From Rhodobacter xanthinilyticus (GTDB lineage: Bacteria; Pseudomonadota; Alphaproteobacteria; Rhodobacterales; Rhodobacteraceae), in NCBI RefSeq assembly GCF_001856665.1, contig NZ_CP017781.1:1459501-1523500 (forward strand): a stretch of 64,000 bases of DNA, in the 5' to 3' direction. Shown here one piece after another: positions 18,833-25,619 of the stretch. Positions within the stretch are counted from its first letter, which is position 1. Each line of letters starts with the position of its first letter. Under the pieces are notes generated by a model that saw only the letters and a list, made by a program, of their open reading frames with translations, did no database searches and had not been told where the DNA came from. The translations under genes were made by a program, and so were the position numbers.

Positions 18833-19798
18833 TCAGGCCGCCGCGGCGCCAAAAAGCCGCCCCACGCCGCGCGCCTCGGCGAGATTGCCATCCGCCCCGC
18901 GCAGCAAGAAGAGTGCCTCGAGCCCCGCGCGGCGCGCCAGATCGAGCCCCGCCTCCGGCCCCGCCACCATCAGGGCCGTCGCCCAGGCATCCGCCGCCGC
19001 GCAGCTTTGCGCGACCACCGTCACCGAGGCGGGCGCGGCCAGCAGCGGCATGCCGCGGCGCGGGTCCATCGTATGGGCAAGCGCGCGGCCCTGCACCTCG
19101 ACGAAATGGCGATAATCGCCCGAGGTCGCGACCGCCGCCTCCTCGAGCACGAGCATCGAATGGGGCGTGCGCCGCCCGACCTCGGGCGCCTCGACCGCGA
19201 TCGTCCAGCCCGCGCCATCGGGCCGCCGGCCGAGCGCGCGCATCTCGCCATCGATCCCGACGAGCCCCGCCGTGACCCCCGCAGCCTTCAGCGCGCGGGC
19301 CAGACAATCGGCGCCATAGCCCTTCGCGATGCCGTTGAGATCGAGCGAGACCGGCGCGAGGCGGCGCGCGCGCGCGCCCGCGCGGTCAAGCTCCACCGTC
19401 TCCCAGGCCGGGCGGCGCGCGGCCGTGCGCGCCGCGCCGATCGCGGCCTCGCTCGCCCCCTCCGGGCCAAAGCCCCAGGCCCGCACCGCATCGCCCAGCG
19501 TGAGATCAAACGCCCCGCCCGAGGCGCGCCCGATCGTCAGCCCGAGATGCAGCACCTCCCCGATCTCGGCCCCGAGCGCCACCCATTCGCCGACCGGCGC
19601 GGCGTTGAGCCGGTTCAGATCGCTCCCCGCGCGCCAGAGCGACATCTGCGCATCGACCCGCTCGACGGCGGCCTGGAGCGCGGCGCTGAGCGGCGCCGTC
19701 CCGGTGCCCTCGGGCAGATAAAGGAGCGCCGACCAGCGCGTGCCCATCGTCGGCCCGTTGAGCGCGACGCGCACCAGATCAGTAGACATCTTCGACAT
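18833..19798 (-). CDS. apbE: FAD:protein FMN transferase
   Basis: A 321-residue ApbE-family enzyme, which attaches FMN covalently to Thr/Ser of extracytoplasmic acceptor proteins using FAD. Landmarks are [11 protein letters not shown] near the start, [55 protein letters not shown] and the C-terminal [15 protein letters not shown] with metal/FAD-binding residues. No signal peptide is evident, which is unusual because most ApbE are exported. It overlaps the end of the flavoprotein gene upstream by 20 bp (an ATG at 19789 is an alternative), so the two are co-translated. Its likely clients are the DUF2271 and PepSY proteins of the same operon. Confidence 0.92.
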
Positions 19799-21983
19799 AA
19801 CGCCCCTCCGCGCGGAGTTGGGCCGGGGAAAGCCCCAGCGGTTCGAGAATTTCGGCCATCGCCTCGGCCACGCCCTCGGCCATCGCGCGCCCGCCGCAGA
19901 TCATCACCCGCGCGCCCGCGCCGACCAGCCGCGCCACCTCCTGCGCCTCGGCGCGCAGCGCGTCTTGCACATAACGCGGCCGCGCGCCGCGCGAGGACGC
20001 CGTGGTGAGCGCGCCGAGCCGCCCCTCGGCCTGCCAGGCGGCAAATTCCGGCCCGTAGAGGTAATCCGAGCGCAGATCGCGCTGGCCATAGAAGAGATGC
20101 ACCGGGCGGCGGCGGGCATTGGCGCGGATGAACCCGGCCAAGGGCCCGACGCCCGAGCCCGCGCCGATCAGGATCAGCGGGCTGCGGCCCTCGGGCGCCT
20201 GAAAGCCCGGGTTCGGCCGCAAGAAGGCGGTGATCTCGTCGCCCGGCTGGAGCGCGAGAAGCTGCCCCGAGCACAGCCCGCCCGGGTGGCGCGAGACGAC
20301 AATCTCGACAAAGCCGTCGCGCGCGCCCGAGGCCAGCGAGTAGAACCGCGGCACCTCGGAGCCCCGGGGCAGAACCCCCAGCAGATCGCCCGGCGCAAAG
20401 CGCGGCGCGCGCCCGGTCAGCCGCGCCAAGAGCCCCGCGCGGGGCGTGGCAAAGCGCAGGATCGAGATCGGCGCCTGCACGGCCTCGCCGTAATCGCGCC
20501 GCGAGAGGAGGGCGAGACGGTGGGTCCGGGGCGCGGCCTGCGCGGCGGCGGTGATCGCAAGATCATGGCCGAGCGCGGCGCCAAGCGTGGCGAGCCAGGC
20601 GTTGATCTCCTCGGCCGCGCCGGCATTGACCGCGCCCATCGGCACGAGCGCCGCCCAGCCCTTGGCCTCGGCCGCGGCCGCGACCTTGCGGGCATAGCCG
20701 CAGAACGCGGGGAAGGCGCGGTCGCCAAAGCCGAGGAGCGCATAGGGCGCGGCAGGCGCGGCGGGGAGGGCGGCGAGGCGGTCGAGGAAGCCTGCGGCCG
20801 AGGCGGGGGCCGCGCCCGAGCCATAGGTCGCGCTCAGGATCAGATGGGCGCGCGCCTGCGCCGCCGCGGCGGGCGCAAAGCCCGACATCGGCGCGATATG
20901 CACCCGCTCGCCTGCCGCGCTGAGCGCGCGCCCCAGCGCCTCGGCCGTGGCGCGCGTGGTGCCGCCCTCGCTGCCGACCCAAAGCACGAGGCTCGCCTGC
21001 GAAAGCGCCACCTGCGGCGCGCGCGCCCCGCGCCGACGGCCCCGCGCCCAGAGCAGGAGCCCGCTCACGCCGAGCACCGGCACCCCCGCCGCCGCGAGGC
21101 CCAGAAGCCCCGCCCAAAGCGCGGTGCCCTCGCCGCTGTGCAGCCGCTCGAGAAGTGCGCTCATTCGCGTCATCGGCGAGGTCGTGGCCTCGGAAATCAC
21201 CGCGCCGGTGCCCTGGTCGATCGTGGCCGAGCCGGTCGCGGTCTCGAGCGTGTAGAAATCCTGCGCGTCGCCGGGCGTCGGAAAGCTGAGGCTTTCCATG
21301 GCGCTGGCGGGCGTCTCGGCGAAAAGGGGGATGGTTTCGGGCGCCGCGCCCATGCTGCCCGAAACAGACATCGGATAGGCTGGCAGCGCCGCCGTGTCAG
21401 GCAAGAGATCGAAGCTCGAGGCGGTCAGCCAAAGCCCGGTCAGCGCCGAAAACGCGAGGAGCACGAAGCTCGCGCGGCCGATCTCGGCATGGACCCGCGC
21501 CGCGCCCCGGCCCGGCAGCGCGCGCAAAAGCCCGCCCCAGCCGCCCGCGCGGCGTTTGAGCAGCATCAGCCCCGTGAGCGCCAGCGCCAGCATCGCCGCC
21601 GCCCCGCCCGCCACGATCAGCCGCCCGGTATCCTCGAGAAAAAGCGCCCGGTGCAGGTTCGTCAGCCACACCAGAAGCGCATCGGGCCCGGCCTCGACGA
21701 GCGGCGCGCCGCTCAGCGGGTCGATCACCGCCGAATGCGCCGCGCCATCGGCAAACCACCAGGCGGTGAGCGCCCCCGAAGGCGCCCGCCGCAGCTCTTC
21801 GATCATCGGGATCTGGGCGGTGACCGCGCGCATCAGATCGGCGAGGCTGAGCCCCGCGGGCAGCGCGGGCGCGGCGAGCGCATCGCGCGCCGCCAGAACC
21901 GCAAGCCCCAGCCCGCTCAGGCTGATCACCGAAGCGAGCGCCGTCGTGACGAGCCCCGCCCATCTATGAATCGCGCGGATCAT
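19779..21983 (-). CDS. PepSY-TM / flavodoxin / ferredoxin-NADP-reductase fusion protein
   Basis: A 734-residue inner-membrane electron-transfer protein. Residues 1-340 are a PepSY-associated TM unit with four helices (about 10-32, 120-142, 168-190, 292-315) and membrane-embedded His (IHRWAG, LHRAL, HAEIGRAS) that could ligate haem. Residues about 332-470 are flavodoxin-like (VLWVGSEGGTTRATAEALG). The C-terminal 230 residues are an FAD/NADPH reductase (RFYSLASG, LILIGAGSGVGPLAGFI, VMICGG, ending EDVY) of the cytochrome-P450-reductase type. It should move electrons from cytoplasmic NAD(P)H across the membrane. It is followed by apbE in overlap and preceded by DUF2271. Confidence 0.88.
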   Translation of the reverse strand: MIRAIHRWAGLVTTALASVISLSGLGLAVLAARDALAAPALPAGLSLADLMRAVTAQIPMIEELRRAPSGALTAWWFADGAAHSAVIDPLSGAPLVEAGPDALLVWLTNLHRALFLEDTGRLIVAGGAAAMLALALTGLMLLKRRAGGWGGLLRALPGRGAARVHAEIGRASFVLLAFSALTGLWLTASSFDLLPDTAALPAYPMSVSGSMGAAPETIPLFAETPASAMESLSFPTPGDAQDFYTLETATGSATIDQGTGAVISEATTSPMTRMSALLERLHSGEGTALWAGLLGLAAAGVPVLGVSGLLLWARGRRRGARAPQVALSQASLVLWVGSEGGTTRATAEALGRALSAAGERVHIAPMSGFAPAAAAQARAHLILSATYGSGAAPASAAGFLDRLAALPAAPAAPYALLGFGDRAFPAFCGYARKVAAAAEAKGWAALVPMGAVNAGAAEEINAWLATLGAALGHDLAITAAAQAAPRTHRLALLSRRDYGEAVQAPISILRFATPRAGLLARLTGRAPRFAPGDLLGVLPRGSEVPRFYSLASGARDGFVEIVVSRHPGGLCSGQLLALQPGDEITAFLRPNPGFQAPEGRSPLILIGAGSGVGPLAGFIRANARRRPVHLFYGQRDLRSDYLYGPEFAAWQAEGRLGALTTASSRGARPRYVQDALRAEAQEVARLVGAGARVMICGGRAMAEGVAEAMAEILEPLGLSPAQLRAEGRYVEDVY

Positions 21984-21998: not shown

Positions 21999-22469
21999 TC
22001 AAAGCCCGTAGCTGAACGAGGCGATATAGCGGCTGCCCGCCACCGCCTGACCCGCCCCCGCCCGCGTCAGCGGCACGGTGATTTCGCTGGGCACGTCGCT
22101 CATCTTCTCGACCGAGCTGTCGATATGCAGCGTATAGCCCGCATCGAAGAGCGCATCGGCGAGATCGAGCGTGATCTCCAGCGTGCGGCCCGCGCCGACC
22201 GAGGCGCCGGTGATCCCGTTGACCTCGGCGACATTGCCGCCCGTGGCCCGATACCAACCCACAAGGTGCTGATAATACTTGGATTTGCCGCCCGCCATCC
22301 AGAGCGAGCCGACATATTGGCCCTGCGCATCGGTGACGTAATAGGCCAGATAGGCGCCGTCGCCGCCATAGTTCGAGAGCGTGGTGGTGAAGGTCACCGG
22401 CGTGGCCATCGCGAGCGCAGGCAGCGTCATCGCGGTGGTGGCGCCGAGCGCAACAAGAAGCGGTTTCAT
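21999..22469 (-). CDS. DUF2271 exported protein, candidate flavinylated carrier
   Basis: The protein has 156 residues from the ATG at 22469. A signal peptide (residues 1-22, ending PALAMA) precedes a DUF2271 beta-rich domain (VTFTTTLSNYGGDGAYLAYYVTDAQGQYV, GSLWMAGGKSKYYQHL). Residues 84-90 read NGITGAS, which resembles the ApbE flavinylation motif DxxTGAT with two conservative changes (Asp to Asn, Thr to Ser). DUF2271 genes commonly accompany apbE and PepSY-TM genes. It lies 15 bp upstream of the PepSY fusion gene. Flavinylation is inferred, not shown. Confidence 0.85.
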   Translation of the reverse strand: MKPLLVALGATTAMTLPALAMATPVTFTTTLSNYGGDGAYLAYYVTDAQGQYVGSLWMAGGKSKYYQHLVGWYRATGGNVAEVNGITGASVGAGRTLEITLDLADALFDAGYTLHIDSSVEKMSDVPSEITVPLTRAGAGQAVAGSRYIASFSYGL

Positions 22470-22491: not shown

Positions 22492-22914
22492 TTACTTGGT
22501 GACCACGGCCGGCGCGCCGCCCGGCACGAAGAGCCCGTTTTTCGGCGGCGCAACCGAGCCCGCGGGCGCCGCCTGCGGGCCGCCGCGACCGTCGTCGTCA
22601 TCATCATCGTCGTCGTCGTGGTGATCGCCCTTGCGGCCACGGCGCGCGTCATCATCATCGTCGTCATCATGCCAGACCCGCTGCCAGATCGCGCCGATCC
22701 CGTCGGCATCGGCATGGCGCTCGCCCCGGCGGGCGGCGGGCGCGGGCGTCACGGGGGTGGCGTTCGCATCAAGGAACTGCACCGAGACCGAGCCCGTGGC
22801 GGGCGCGGGCAACAGGGCCTGCGGCGCGGTCGCGGGGGCCTGGGCGAGCACCGGCAGGGCCAGCCCCGCAGCCAGCGCGGCCAGCGGGGCGAGGATCAGG
22901 ACTTTCGAGTTCAT
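22492..22914 (-). CDS. Exported protein with poly-Asp and His-Asp tracts, possible metal binder
   Basis: A 140-residue protein with a signal peptide (1-24, LPVLAQA) and a Pro/Ala-rich, probably unstructured body. It contains WH followed by seven Asp (83-89), and GDHH followed by nine Asp (100-108), separated by a basic RRGRKG. The C-terminus ends NGLFVPGGAPAVVTK. I recognise no family. Acidic and His clusters of this kind bind di- or trivalent cations, so a metal-sequestering or metal-presenting role beside a redox system is plausible. First gene of the operon with DUF2271, the PepSY fusion and apbE; a 49-bp operator lies 45 bp upstream. Confidence 0.72.
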   Translation of the reverse strand: MNSKVLILAPLAALAAGLALPVLAQAPATAPQALLPAPATGSVSVQFLDANATPVTPAPAARRGERHADADGIGAIWQRVWHDDDDDDDARRGRKGDHHDDDDDDDDDGRGGPQAAPAGSVAPPKNGLFVPGGAPAVVTK

Positions 22915-22958
22915 GGGTCACTCCTAAACTGTCTATGACGCCTATCTGGCCCCCGGGG

Positions 22959-23007
22959 CTGAGGGTTTCCTGACAGGGGCGCAAAAACTTCGTCAGCTTC
23001 CCGTCAG
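22959..23007. promoter_or_regulatory. 49-bp composite operator upstream of the Asp-rich/DUF2271/PepSY/apbE operon
   Basis: On the plus strand the element reads CTGAG-N6-CTGAC, then a 17-bp gap, then GTCAG-N6-GTCAG. Half-sites start at 22959, 22970, 22992 and 23003, so each pair has an 11-bp period, the spacing of OmpR/PhoB-family direct repeats. Read toward the minus-strand gene, the proximal pair is GTCAG-N6-CTCAG and is followed about 10 bp later by a GATAG -10-like sequence. The same architecture and gap recur at 23533-23581. Confidence 0.75.
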
Positions 23008-23043
23008 CTTTCGCGTGGCCCCGCAACCCCTTGCGCCAAAACG

Positions 23044-23068
23044 AAAAACCCCGCCCGGGAGGGCGGGG
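23044..23068 (-). terminator. Intrinsic terminator after the small PepSY gene
   Basis: On the minus strand a perfect 8-bp stem (CCCCGCCC/GGGCGGGG) with a 4-base loop is followed by TTTTTCG. It is 31 bp past the PepSY stop and makes that gene monocistronic. Confidence 0.88.
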
Positions 23069-23099
23069 CGCCGGAGGGGGTTCTCCGGGTCAGTCGCGC

Positions 23100-23483
23100 T
23101 CAATGATGGTCGTCATGCTCCTCGGCGCCGGGCAGATGGCCGAGCAGCTTCTTCCAGCGCGCGCGCAGCTCCTCATGCTCGTGATCGTCATGGCGCGCCC
23201 GCGCCTCGGGGGTATCGGTATAGTCGAGCTCAAGCACCTCGAGCGTCGCCGGGTTCAGCTCCACCACCATCGGCCGCCCCGTCGCATCGGTGCCGCGGAT
23301 CTTGTAACAGCCGTCGTCGATGCGCAGCTTGCCGATGCTCCAGCCCTTTTCCGCGGCCATCGCCACCACCGCCTCGCGCGGCTGCCACTCGGCCATCGGC
23401 ACGAAGCAGTCCTCGTCATCGGCCCGCGCCATCCCGGCCGGGATCAGCGCGCAAAAGAGCAGAATTGTCAGCGGTTTCTTCAT
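23100..23483 (-). CDS. Small periplasmic PepSY-domain protein with His/Asp-rich tail
   Basis: The protein has 127 residues from the ATG at 23483. A signal peptide (1-21, ending GMARA) precedes one PepSY-type domain (about 28-95: FVPMAEWQPREAVVAMAAEKGWSIGKLRIDDGCYKIRGTD...GRPMVVELNPATLEVLEL). It contains two cysteines (ADDEDCF and DDGCYK) that could form a disulfide. The C-terminus is His/Asp-rich (RHDDHEHEE, EEHDDHH), suggesting metal binding. It is divergent from the adjacent two-component genes with a shared 49-bp operator, so it may be the periplasmic modulator of the kinase. Confidence 0.82.
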   Translation of the reverse strand: MKKPLTILLFCALIPAGMARADDEDCFVPMAEWQPREAVVAMAAEKGWSIGKLRIDDGCYKIRGTDATGRPMVVELNPATLEVLELDYTDTPEARARHDDHEHEELRARWKKLLGHLPGAEEHDDHH

Positions 23484-23532
23484 CGGGCAAACTCCGGCCA
23501 ACCGGGCCATGCGACGGATATGCGCGGCGAAA

Positions 23533-23581
23533 CTGACAGGATCCTGACGCGCTGAAAAGCCCCGCGTCAGCTTTCCGTCAG
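23533..23581. promoter_or_regulatory. 49-bp composite operator between the small PepSY gene and the two-component system
   Basis: CTGAC-N6-CTGAC (23533-23548), a 17-bp gap, then GTCAG-N6-GTCAG (23566-23581). All four half-sites are perfect and each pair has an 11-bp period. Each pair reads GTCAG-N6-GTCAG toward the gene it faces and is followed 8-10 bp later by a -10-like sequence (GATAGA on plus, CATATC on minus). This suits simultaneous activation of the divergent PepSY and regulator genes by the local OmpR-type regulator. Confidence 0.8.
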
Positions 23582-23622
23582 ATCCGCGCGATAGAGCCGG
23601 GGCAGGCCGGAAAGGACGAGCG

Positions 23623-24282
23623 ATGCGGATCTTGCTGATCGAGGATGATACGGTTCTGGGCGCGGCGGTGCGCGACCAGATCGCGGCGGATGGCCAGACG
23701 GTCGATTGGGTGACGCGGCTTGATCTCGCGCGCGAGGCGATGGCGGGCACGGGCTATGACCTCGTGCTGCTCGATCTGATGCTGCCCGACGGGCGCGGGA
23801 TCGCGTTCCTGCGCGCGGTGCGCGCGCGCGGCGAGACGGTGCCGGTGATCATCCTGACCGCGCTCGACCAGATCTCGGACCGCATCGAGGGCTTGAACGC
23901 GGGCGCCGATGACTACCTCGTCAAACCCTTCGATCTGGCCGAGCTCTCGGCGCGGATCGGGGCCGTCGCGCGCCGCTATAGCGGCAACCCCAACCCCTTG
24001 ATCCATATCGAAGATCTCGAGATCGACCTGGCGCAGAAACGGGTTTCGCGGGGGGGCAAGGCGGTGAGCCTGACGGCGCGGGAATGGGCGCTTTTCGAGG
24101 CCTTCCTCTCCCGCCCGGGGCAGGTCTTCTCGCGCGCGCAGCTCGAGGACAAGCTCTACGCCTTCGACGCCGAGGTCGAGAGCAATGCGATCGAGGTCCA
24201 TATCAGCCGGTTGCGCAAGAAGCTCGGCGCGCGCGTGATCGCGACCGAACGCGGCCTTGGCTACCGGCTGGTGGCGCGGTGA
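23623..24282 (+). CDS. OmpR/QseB-type response regulator
   Basis: A 219-residue regulator. The receiver (1-118) has acidic pocket E7-D8-D9, acceptor Asp51 in DLVLLDLMLPDGRG and Lys in DDYLVKPFDLAEL. The winged-helix output (about 125-219) has LTAREWALFEAFLSRPGQVFSR, NAIEVHISRLRKKLG and TERGLGYRLVAR. It is followed by its kinase in a GTGA overlap. Direct repeats of GTCAG with 11-bp period upstream are the type of site bound by this family (PmrA/QseB boxes have the same spacing), so positive autoregulation is likely. Confidence 0.93.
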   Translation: MRILLIEDDTVLGAAVRDQIAADGQTVDWVTRLDLAREAMAGTGYDLVLLDLMLPDGRGIAFLRAVRARGETVPVIILTALDQISDRIEGLNAGADDYLVKPFDLAELSARIGAVARRYSGNPNPLIHIEDLEIDLAQKRVSRGGKAVSLTAREWALFEAFLSRPGQVFSRAQLEDKLYAFDAEVESNAIEVHISRLRKKLGARVIATERGLGYRLVAR

Positions 24283-25619
24283 GGCGGCTCACGAGCCTGC
24301 AGGCGCGGCTCGGGCTGACGCTCGGGGTTGCGCTGACCGCGCTTTGGCTCGCCGCCGGTTCGCTCACCGCGCTGATCTTGCGCGGCGAGATGAATCAGGT
24401 CTTCGACGCGGCGCTGAAGGAGACCTCGGACCGGATCTTGCCGCTCGCGGTGATCGACATCATCTCCCGCGCCGAGGCCGAGGAGCCCGGCGTGCAGCGC
24501 CTTGCCACCGCGCGCGAGGGGGATGAGTTCTTCACCTATATCCTGCGCGACGAGACCGGCGCGCTCTTGATGCAATCCCATAACGCCGAGCCCTCCGCCT
24601 TCCCCGCCTGGCAGGGTCCGGGCTTTTCCGAAGACGCAACCTACCGGTTTTACAGCGATTTTGCCCTGAAGGGCACGGTGCGGATCACCGTGGCGGAGCC
24701 GCTGGCGCATCGCGCCGAGGTCGCGCGCGAGATCCAGATGGGGCTCTTGGCGCCGCTTCTGCTCGTGCTGCCGCTCGCGCTCGCGGCGGTGGCGGTGGGC
24801 GTGCGGCTCTCGCTCGGCGCGGTGCGCCGCTTCCGCGCGGCGCTCAGCGCGCGGGGCCCGCGCGATTTCTCGCCCTTGCCCGAGGCCGGGCTGCCCGCCG
24901 AGATCGCGCCGCTCGCCTCCGCGCTCAACGGCGTGCTCGCCCGCCTCGAGGCCGCCTTCGCGGCCGAGCGCAGCTTTGCCGCGAACGCCGCGCATGAGCT
25001 GCGCACGCCGCTCGCCGGCGCGATCGCCCAGGCCCAGCGGCTGCGCGCCGAGACCGCCGACCCCGCCGCCGCGGCCCGCGCGGGCGAGATCGAGGCCGTG
25101 CTCAAGCGCCTGACCCGGTTCGCCGAGCGCCTGATGCAGCTTGCCCGCGCCGAGGGCGGCCGGATCCGCCGCGCCGAGGCCGCCGATCTGCGCCCGGTGC
25201 TGCGGCTCGTGGCCGAGGATGTGGCGCGCGCGGGCGGGGAAGGGCGGGTCTCGCTCGATCTGCCCAGCGCGCCGGTGCGCGGCGATATCGACCCCGATGC
25301 GCTGGCGATCCTGACCCGAAATCTCCTGGAAAACGCGCTGCGCCATGGCGCCGAGGGGCGCCCGGTGGGCCTCACGCTCACCCCCGCGGGCGCGCTCAGC
25401 GTCACGAACGACGGCGCCCCCGTGCCGCCCGAGGTGCTCGCGCGCCTCACCACGCGGTTCGAGCGCGGCGCGGCCGAGGCCGAGGGCTCGGGCCTCGGCC
25501 TCGCCATCGTCGCCGCGATCGCCGAGGGCGCGGGCGGCGCGCTCACGCTCCGCTCGCCGATCCCGGGCGCCGCGGGCGGCTTTTGCGCCGAAGTGCGGCT
25601 GCCGGTTCAGCCCGGCTGA
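24279..25619 (+). CDS. Membrane sensor histidine kinase (QseC/PmrB-like)
   Basis: A 446-residue kinase from the GTG at 24279, which overlaps the regulator stop (GTGA). Membrane helices are at about 8-30 and 150-172, with a periplasmic domain of about 120 residues between (FDAALKETSDRILPLAV...FFTYILRDETGALL), the 2CSK-N-type sensor of QseC/TctE kinases. The H-box AANAAHELRTPLAG has His239 as acceptor, followed by an N-box LLENALRHGAEG and GSGLGLAIVAAIAEG. Periplasmic ligand is unknown. The divergent small PepSY protein is a candidate partner. Its stop overlaps by 13 bp the stop of the convergent M20 gene. Confidence 0.92.
   Translation: MRRLTSLQARLGLTLGVALTALWLAAGSLTALILRGEMNQVFDAALKETSDRILPLAVIDIISRAEAEEPGVQRLATAREGDEFFTYILRDETGALLMQSHNAEPSAFPAWQGPGFSEDATYRFYSDFALKGTVRITVAEPLAHRAEVAREIQMGLLAPLLLVLPLALAAVAVGVRLSLGAVRRFRAALSARGPRDFSPLPEAGLPAEIAPLASALNGVLARLEAAFAAERSFAANAAHELRTPLAGAIAQAQRLRAETADPAAAARAGEIEAVLKRLTRFAERLMQLARAEGGRIRRAEAADLRPVLRLVAEDVARAGGEGRVSLDLPSAPVRGDIDPDALAILTRNLLENALRHGAEGRPVGLTLTPAGALSVTNDGAPVPPEVLARLTTRFERGAAEAEGSGLGLAIVAAIAEGAGGALTLRSPIPGAAGGFCAEVRLPVQPG

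Follow-up and report, generated by a model that had tools for sequence, protein, structure and literature searches.

The described operators closest to the elements of this study are read by the response regulators BqsR (CarR), PmrA (BasR) and ArcA. In Pseudomonas aeruginosa, BqsR/CarR operators take the form TTAAG-N6-TTAAG with up to four pentamers per promoter, where exactly 6 bp are needed between the pentamers and the downstream pentamer overlaps the -35 element (PMC4682146). PmrA is described as a dimer bound head to tail to two tandem half-sites, with the -35 element lying in half-1 (PMC4660055), and recruitment of RNA polymerase from such boxes is thought to occur for PmrA, PhoB and BqsR. 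ArcA sites hold from three to five repeats in steps of 11 or 22 bp, and the binding of a further repeat is sensitive to its spacing (PMC3798270), while OmpR is said to bind either head to tail or head to head (PMC8345958).

Small PepSY proteins have been described next to two-component systems. In DbfQRS-type modules, a small periplasmic PepSY protein is encoded by the two-component pair, sometimes divergently, autoregulation has been suggested, and DbfQ acts on its own kinase from the periplasm (PMC12714742). Metal binding is known for PepSY proteins, with LanP binding lanthanides (PMC11845868). Clusters of DUF2271, PepSY-like and ApbE genes carry the motif [S/T]GA[S/T] and have been given a proposed role in iron reduction (PMC8238504). 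Here we analyze a locus of Rhodobacter xanthinilyticus, whose genome has Defluviimonas, Yoonia and other Rhodobacteraceae among its named relatives, in which a flavinylation operon, a small PepSY gene and a two-component pair lie around two copies of one four-half-site element. Throughout, the window means the whole 64,000-nucleotide stretch that was analyzed, and L and G numbers are our labels for loci and genomes.

Results

Two 49-bp elements flank a small PepSY gene

The original prediction placed two copies of a 49-bp pattern, CTGAC-N6-CTGAC-N17-GTCAG-N6-GTCAG, in the window, and both were recovered at exactly the coordinates and spacing it gave (Table 1). Allowing up to three mismatches, the pattern matches twice in the window and never in 100 dinucleotide shuffles. 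It had been expected that few other sites would exist in the genome, and at the same tolerance, with the gap fixed at 17 bp, a scan of all 3.78 Mb returned only the same two elements. The half-sites are direct repeats with an 11-bp period, as in operators of the OmpR/PhoB family, and one architecture is common to two units, both as proposed; the gene map and Pfam domains likewise confirm the predicted placement of one element ahead of the Asp-rich/DUF2271/PepSY_TM/apbE operon and the other between the PepSY_2 gene and the two-component genes. Since the operon and the PepSY_2 gene lie on the minus strand, the plus-strand transcriptome that had been suggested as a check would miss both.

Table 1. 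Positions in the window of the two elements, their promoter-like sequences and the surrounding genes
Feature	Position	Strand	Remarks
Element 1, candidate operator of the Asp-rich/DUF2271/PepSY_TM/apbE operon	22959..23007		One mismatch (CTGAG)
Half-sites of element 1	22959-22963 CTGAG; 22970-22974 CTGAC; 22992-22996 and 23003-23007 GTCAG		17-bp gap, 22975-22991
Upstream-facing box of element 1, proposed anchor box	22992..23007	+	A at +12 in 0/15; box conserved
-10-like hexamer CAGATA, operon promoter	22943..22948	-	10 bp after element 1; A at +12 in 15/15
Element 2, candidate divergent operator between PepSY_2 and regulator genes	23533..23581		Perfect match
Half-sites of element 2	23533-23537 and 23544-23548 CTGAC; 23566-23570 and 23577-23581 GTCAG		17-bp gap, 23549-23565
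-10-like hexamer CATATC, PepSY_2 promoter	23517..23522	-	10 bp after element 2; A at +12 in 25/25
-10-like hexamer TAGAGC, regulator-kinase promoter	23592..23597	+	10 bp after element 2; A at +12 in 25/25
ApbE, FAD:protein FMN transferase	18833..19798	-	PF02424
PepSY_TM-flavodoxin-NAD-binding reductase	19779..21983	-	Pfam
DUF2271 protein	21999..22469	-	PF10029; TGAS at residues 87-90, a form of the ApbE flavinylation motif
Exported Asp-rich protein encoded by the operon's first gene	22492..22914	-	Without Pfam match
GC-rich inverted repeat followed by T run on the minus strand	23050..23068	-	Terminator-like end of the PepSY_2 unit, read in the sequence
Small exported PepSY_2 protein with acidic His-rich tail	23100..23483	-	PF13670, translation
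OmpR-family response regulator, PmrA/QseB-like	23623..24282	+	PF00072, PF00486; proposed binder of both elements
Histidine kinase, QseC-like	24279..25619	+	Profile matches

A wider regulon was also sought with single boxes and rejected. The genome holds seven canonical boxes, three of them within the two elements, and the reversed control gives two. Three of the other four are inside mechanically predicted reading frames, and the fourth is between minus-strand frames and faces away. Given this background (four outside the elements, two in the reversed control), we claim no further target.

The genes of the operon have the composition of a flavinylation cluster, with a DUF2271 protein that carries the [S/T]GA[S/T] motif together with ApbE and PepSY_TM genes, and this fits periplasmic flavin electron transfer. 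The Asp-rich protein has a GSVAPPKNGLFVPG-like peptide at its C-terminal end, and a peptide like it stands at the end of the PepSY_2 protein of another locus (L091).

The length of the gap is kept

To follow the elements among orthologues, we scored 25 loci (the window, L013-L019, L022 and L053-L068), which are kin and in some cases nearly identical (L014/L016, L054/L055), so that the counts are not independent; L020, which has no regulator match, and L069, a 57% paralogue, were left out. The original prediction that orthologues keep the 17-bp gap was upheld. The divergent element is present in all 25 loci, with a gap of 17 bp in 20, 18 bp in four and 35 bp in one, and the operon element has 17 bp in 15 of 15. 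Twenty-two of the loci extend as far as the DUF2271 gene, and the operon element was found in 15 of them; its gap is 17 bp even when that of the divergent copy is 18 or 35 bp, the 35-bp case being the divergent element of L062 (5896-5962), whose operon element keeps 17. In the remaining seven loci (L060, L061 and L063-L067), the operon element was not detected, with best scores of 13-14 of 20 against a shuffled range of 12-16.

Some loci depart from the common arrangement. In the seven loci just named, the flavin operon may be read from the PepSY_2 promoter. L020, on a contig labelled as a Gammaproteobacteria MAG, has relatives of PepSY_2, DUF2271, PepSY_TM and ApbE in a row and no regulator or kinase match above 60 bits within the stretch examined. 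The kinase gene of L017 (6075-7184) lies in separate segments, as if broken or misassembled, and the regulator and element there are intact.

We then left the gap free between 4 and 33 bp and scanned 295 genomes of the family for CTGAC-N6-CTGA(A/C)-gap-(G/T)TCAG-N6-GTCAG. This returned 56 places in 51 genomes, and all 56 have a gap of 7 bp (9 places), 17 bp (34) or 18 bp (13), while a reversed control pattern matched in none of the 295. A stricter scan of the same genomes matched in 11, at gaps of 7 (9) and 17 bp (2). Across the 34 elements with a 17-bp gap, the 13 inner gap positions are 31% identical (median); such low identity in a gap of restricted length indicates that the length is kept and not the sequence. 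The neighbors of elements with a 17- or 18-bp gap were examined for part of the 47 family places: among 22 newly fetched loci (L099-L120), 21 adjoin relatives of PepSY_2, the regulator, the kinase or DUF2271, the exception being L109 of genome G131. In G131 (L109, L167), which has a gap-17 element, no regulator, PepSY or flavin gene was seen by eye in a wider stretch.

Beyond the family, the samples, which have a few genomes in common, yielded other gap lengths as well (5, 9, 14, 26 and 28 bp in other families). The class sample matched in 13 of 385 genomes, and 10 of the 12 places other than our own have a PepSY_2 gene on one side and a regulator-kinase pair on the other, at gaps of 17 (5), 18 (1), 14 (1) and 5 bp (3, one genus); the other two, L070 (gap 8) and L078 (gap 30), are without PepSY_2 or regulator-kinase neighbors. 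The phylum sample matched in 11 of 299, and all 10 newly fetched loci have an OmpR-type regulator within 1.5 kb, at gaps of 17 (3), 26 (2), 28 (2), 19, 9 and 7 bp. In two genomes, paired elements with gaps of 26 and 28 bp lie ∼1.75 kb apart, each with its own regulator copy (L089, L090, L097, L098). Another class of the phylum, centered on G840, was tried and gave one match in 229 genomes, G840 itself.

The nine family places with a 7-bp gap (L021, L023-L030) are near a different OmpR-type regulator, 35-41% identical to that of the window. As judged by eye, seven of these nine loci have a gene for a small PepSY-like protein on one or both sides, and L024 and L030 have a cytochrome-b561-like gene. 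In the gap-7 class, the same design appears to recur in a sister system.

Measured from box to box, distances of 21, 23, 33, 34, 42 and 44 bp are near whole helical turns, and 25, 30, 35, 49 and 51 bp fit less well. Since the clustering of helical phase is weak (nine gap classes, R 0.535 and p 0.028; after adding the 19- and 33-bp cases, R 0.367 and p 0.11), strict phasing was rejected, while some helical phasing of the two boxes is likely.

The operon element keeps a box that faces away from its promoter

According to the original prediction, each outward-facing pair of half-sites stands 8-10 bp before a -10-like sequence. This held for three of the four pairs, where the hexamer follows 10 bp after the box and the promoter-proximal box is at the -35 position, at a fixed distance from the -10; it failed for the pair at 22992-23007. 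The mean number of TATAAT matches at +11 to +16 is 2.80 on the regulator side, 2.88 on the PepSY side and 2.47 on the downstream side of the operon element (control positions, 1.2-1.6). On the upstream side of the operon element, by contrast, A at +12 is found in 0 of 15 orthologous sites, with 0.13 TATAAT matches against 0.83 in the control. A GC hairpin, terminator-like for the PepSY_2 gene, is seen by eye on this side in several loci. The upstream-facing box itself is kept, with a consensus of about GCTTCAGCTTGCCGTCAG, at gap 17. This asymmetry, with three boxes that have A at +12 and a fourth that does not, is new in the present analysis.

The downstream box of the operon element has a particularity of its own. 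Read toward the operon, its outermost half-site is CTCAG in 11, ATCAG in three and GTCAG in one of the 15 orthologous operon sites; the CTGAG half-site of element 1 is a conserved operon-specific variant, not decay. Since this promoter-proximal half-site is CTCAG or ATCAG in 14 of 15 sites, the strong upstream pair probably helps to fill the weak downstream pair.

These observations bear on whether the two boxes need each other at all. They could be independent, each serving one promoter with no cooperation, and the constant gap could come from the packing of divergent promoters or from common descent. Element 2 does sit between two divergent promoters, a single tandem box suffices in the published descriptions of known relatives, and the orthologous loci do share descent. 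What such boxes would not predict is a back-to-back pair retained with only one promoter, yet element 1 has a single promoter, and all 15 detected operon sites preserve the second box together with its orientation and the 17-bp gap; the gap is also restricted in length while near random in sequence. For that reason, we consider independent boxes unlikely, while still giving them some weight. Because the anchor box is kept without a -10, the four half-sites probably form one unit of two dimers back to back, and because the layout recurs in many alphaproteobacteria even when only one half faces a promoter, it probably works as one unit. The cooperative binding of four regulator protomers that had been predicted is strengthened by the single-promoter operon site, and from the sequences we infer it with good reason.

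The elements co-occur with the neighboring regulator

The element co-occurs with the regulator gene in genus and family, which supports the original prediction. Within the genus, a regulator match (E up to 1e-60) was found in 16 genomes, all of which have the element, and the two genomes without a match lack it; one of these two is only 84% complete, and one of the 16, G299, is counted on account of its operon site, as its divergent element has a 35-bp gap. In the family, with orthologues accepted at E up to 1e-70 and up to 10 candidates per genome scored, 44 genomes have both a gap-17/18 element and a regulator orthologue, one (G131) has the element only, 18 have the orthologue only and 232 have neither (Fisher p 1.3e-36, ignoring kinship).

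Most of the regulator-only genomes turned out to have a diverged element. Sixteen of the 18 carry a degenerate gap-17/18 element before the regulator, with 16-19 of the 20 half-site bases correct and an end 43-54 bp before the gene, where best scores in shuffled sequences are 12-16 and 16 was reached in 1 of 51. As for the other two, G111 (L158) has a degenerate element with a 33-bp gap, and G091 has no element upstream of the regulator; second regulator copies in G051 and G225 (L153, L164) have no good element upstream. In five of the 16 degenerate elements (L151, L154, L155, L157, L159), all four half-sites are TTCAG, a coherent shift that is expected if one protein reads all four.

It is very probable that both elements serve as operators for the neighboring PmrA/BqsR-like response regulator. 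Its best NCBIfam match is PmrA, with 209 bits under a cut-off of 330, and its nearest full-length PDB chains are BasR/PmrA. The half-site core is (G/T)TCAG and not the TTAA core that would mark a PmrA or BqsR orthologue. Among the PmrA contact residues, Asn188, Val192 and Arg210 are kept, Thr187 and His195 are each replaced by Ser, and Asn196 is replaced by Arg; at position 196, the PDB chain CarR has His and two gap-7 regulators have Arg (L024, L029, by eye). An Arg at this position may suit the (G/T)TCAG core, which we offer as a lead. Iron(II) sensing through RExxE was considered and rejected: although the window's kinase contains REGDE, an alignment of 42 kinases shows RExxE in only 9, so the iron motif of BqsS is not a feature of the family.

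A regulator other than the neighboring one might read the elements, as could be supposed from the gap-7 elements, which adjoin a different regulator subfamily. The co-occurrence with the orthologue of the neighboring regulator in genus and family, and the coherent change of all four half-sites beside that regulator in five loci, make this improbable.

Discussion

The best explanation of the whole, which we hold to be probable, is that the regulator binds boxes arranged back to back and that an anchor box at element 1 helps to turn on the flavin operon. Each box, made of two direct half-sites with a consensus of about C(T/G)TCAG-N5-CGTCAG, would hold one phosphorylated head-to-tail dimer. Where a box faces a promoter, it overlaps the -35 and its end is 10 bp from the -10, a position from which its dimer could recruit RNA polymerase; this box position and the relatives PmrA, PhoB and BqsR point to activation by the regulator. 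The two outward-facing boxes, back to back across a set gap (17 bp; 18 or 7 in relatives), would put the dimers on roughly the same side of the helix, where they could help each other. At 23533-23581, the unit would serve both the PepSY_2 gene and the regulator-kinase genes, the latter by autoregulation. At 22959-23007, a promoter lies only at the downstream box, and the strong anchor box upstream would help to fill the weak promoter-proximal box, which, once filled, would turn on the Asp-rich/DUF2271/PepSY_TM/ApbE operon. The signal may be sensed through the PepSY protein.

With less assurance, we lean toward a broader view of these elements as a putative, undescribed class of OmpR-family operator, in which inverted back-to-back dimer boxes with a set, roughly helix-phased gap are read as a single tetramer site. 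The gap would be 17/18 bp in one regulator subfamily and 7 bp in another, and the class would be conserved across alphaproteobacterial PepSY two-component modules.

The retention of the upstream-facing box of element 1 could also be explained if it drove an antisense or small RNA toward the PepSY_2 gene, since it faces outward and is kept in all 15 detected operon sites. However, the sequence behind it has no -10, by either the base at +12 or the mean TATAAT matches, and the terminator-like hairpin follows in several loci, which makes such an RNA very improbable. An RNA hairpin or a mobile repeat instead of an operator is a negligible prospect: CTGAC and GTCAG are complementary, but the element is upstream of the inferred starts, the spacers are complementary at 2.74 of 6 positions in 35 elements against 2.92 in mixed pairs, and the genome has only two copies.

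With this candidate operator, genomes can be searched for the targets of a PepSY two-component module whose apparent role is to control the flavinylation of periplasmic proteins. The elements are also a natural test case for OmpR-family dimers set back to back, in which the operon site removes the confounding effect of divergent promoters and relatives supply ready-made gap variants of 5, 7, 9, 14, 17, 18, 26 and 28 bp.

Compared with the known systems, the gene neighborhood is the more familiar part. Like DbfQRS, the locus has a small periplasmic PepSY protein adjoining a two-component pair; it differs in its operator architecture and flavinylation operon, neither of which is described for DbfQRS in the parts of that source we drew on (PMC12714742). 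The operon has the same gene set and motif as the flavinylation clusters of PMC8238504. A difference is that the transcriptional control described there is by Fur; the term 'response regulator' is absent from the main text of that paper.

The boxes themselves resemble those of BqsR/CarR in their direct pentamers, 6-bp spacer and promoter-proximal pentamer over the -35. The BqsR/CarR system also has PepSY genes beside the two-component genes (PMC12714742), and the closest PDB DNA-binding domain to that of the window's regulator is a chain named CarR (9yfa). In contrast to BqsR/CarR, the core is (G/T)TCAG and not TTAAG, and the two pairs are inverted back to back across a 17-bp gap, where the BqsR/CarR pentamers are described in series. 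The kinases also differ from BqsS, for which an ExxE motif is reported, in the minority occurrence of RExxE given above. The PmrA (BasR) box matches in half-site length, spacer and position, and its regulator in the three kept contact residues. The sub-threshold NCBIfam score and the Arg in place of the contact Asn196 set the window's regulator apart from PmrA, as does the inverted second box, none being described for PmrA in the account consulted here. ArcA sites, too, are OmpR-family sites of many repeats, and the inner half-sites here are 22 bp apart; unlike the direct repeats of ArcA, whose number varies, the pairs here are inverted, with a set number of four repeats. None of the titles, abstract openings and matching passages searched describes inverted pairs placed back to back at a set gap. 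Sites of many repeats are already known from BqsR and ArcA, and set beside these descriptions the inverted back-to-back pair with a set gap is a new variation.
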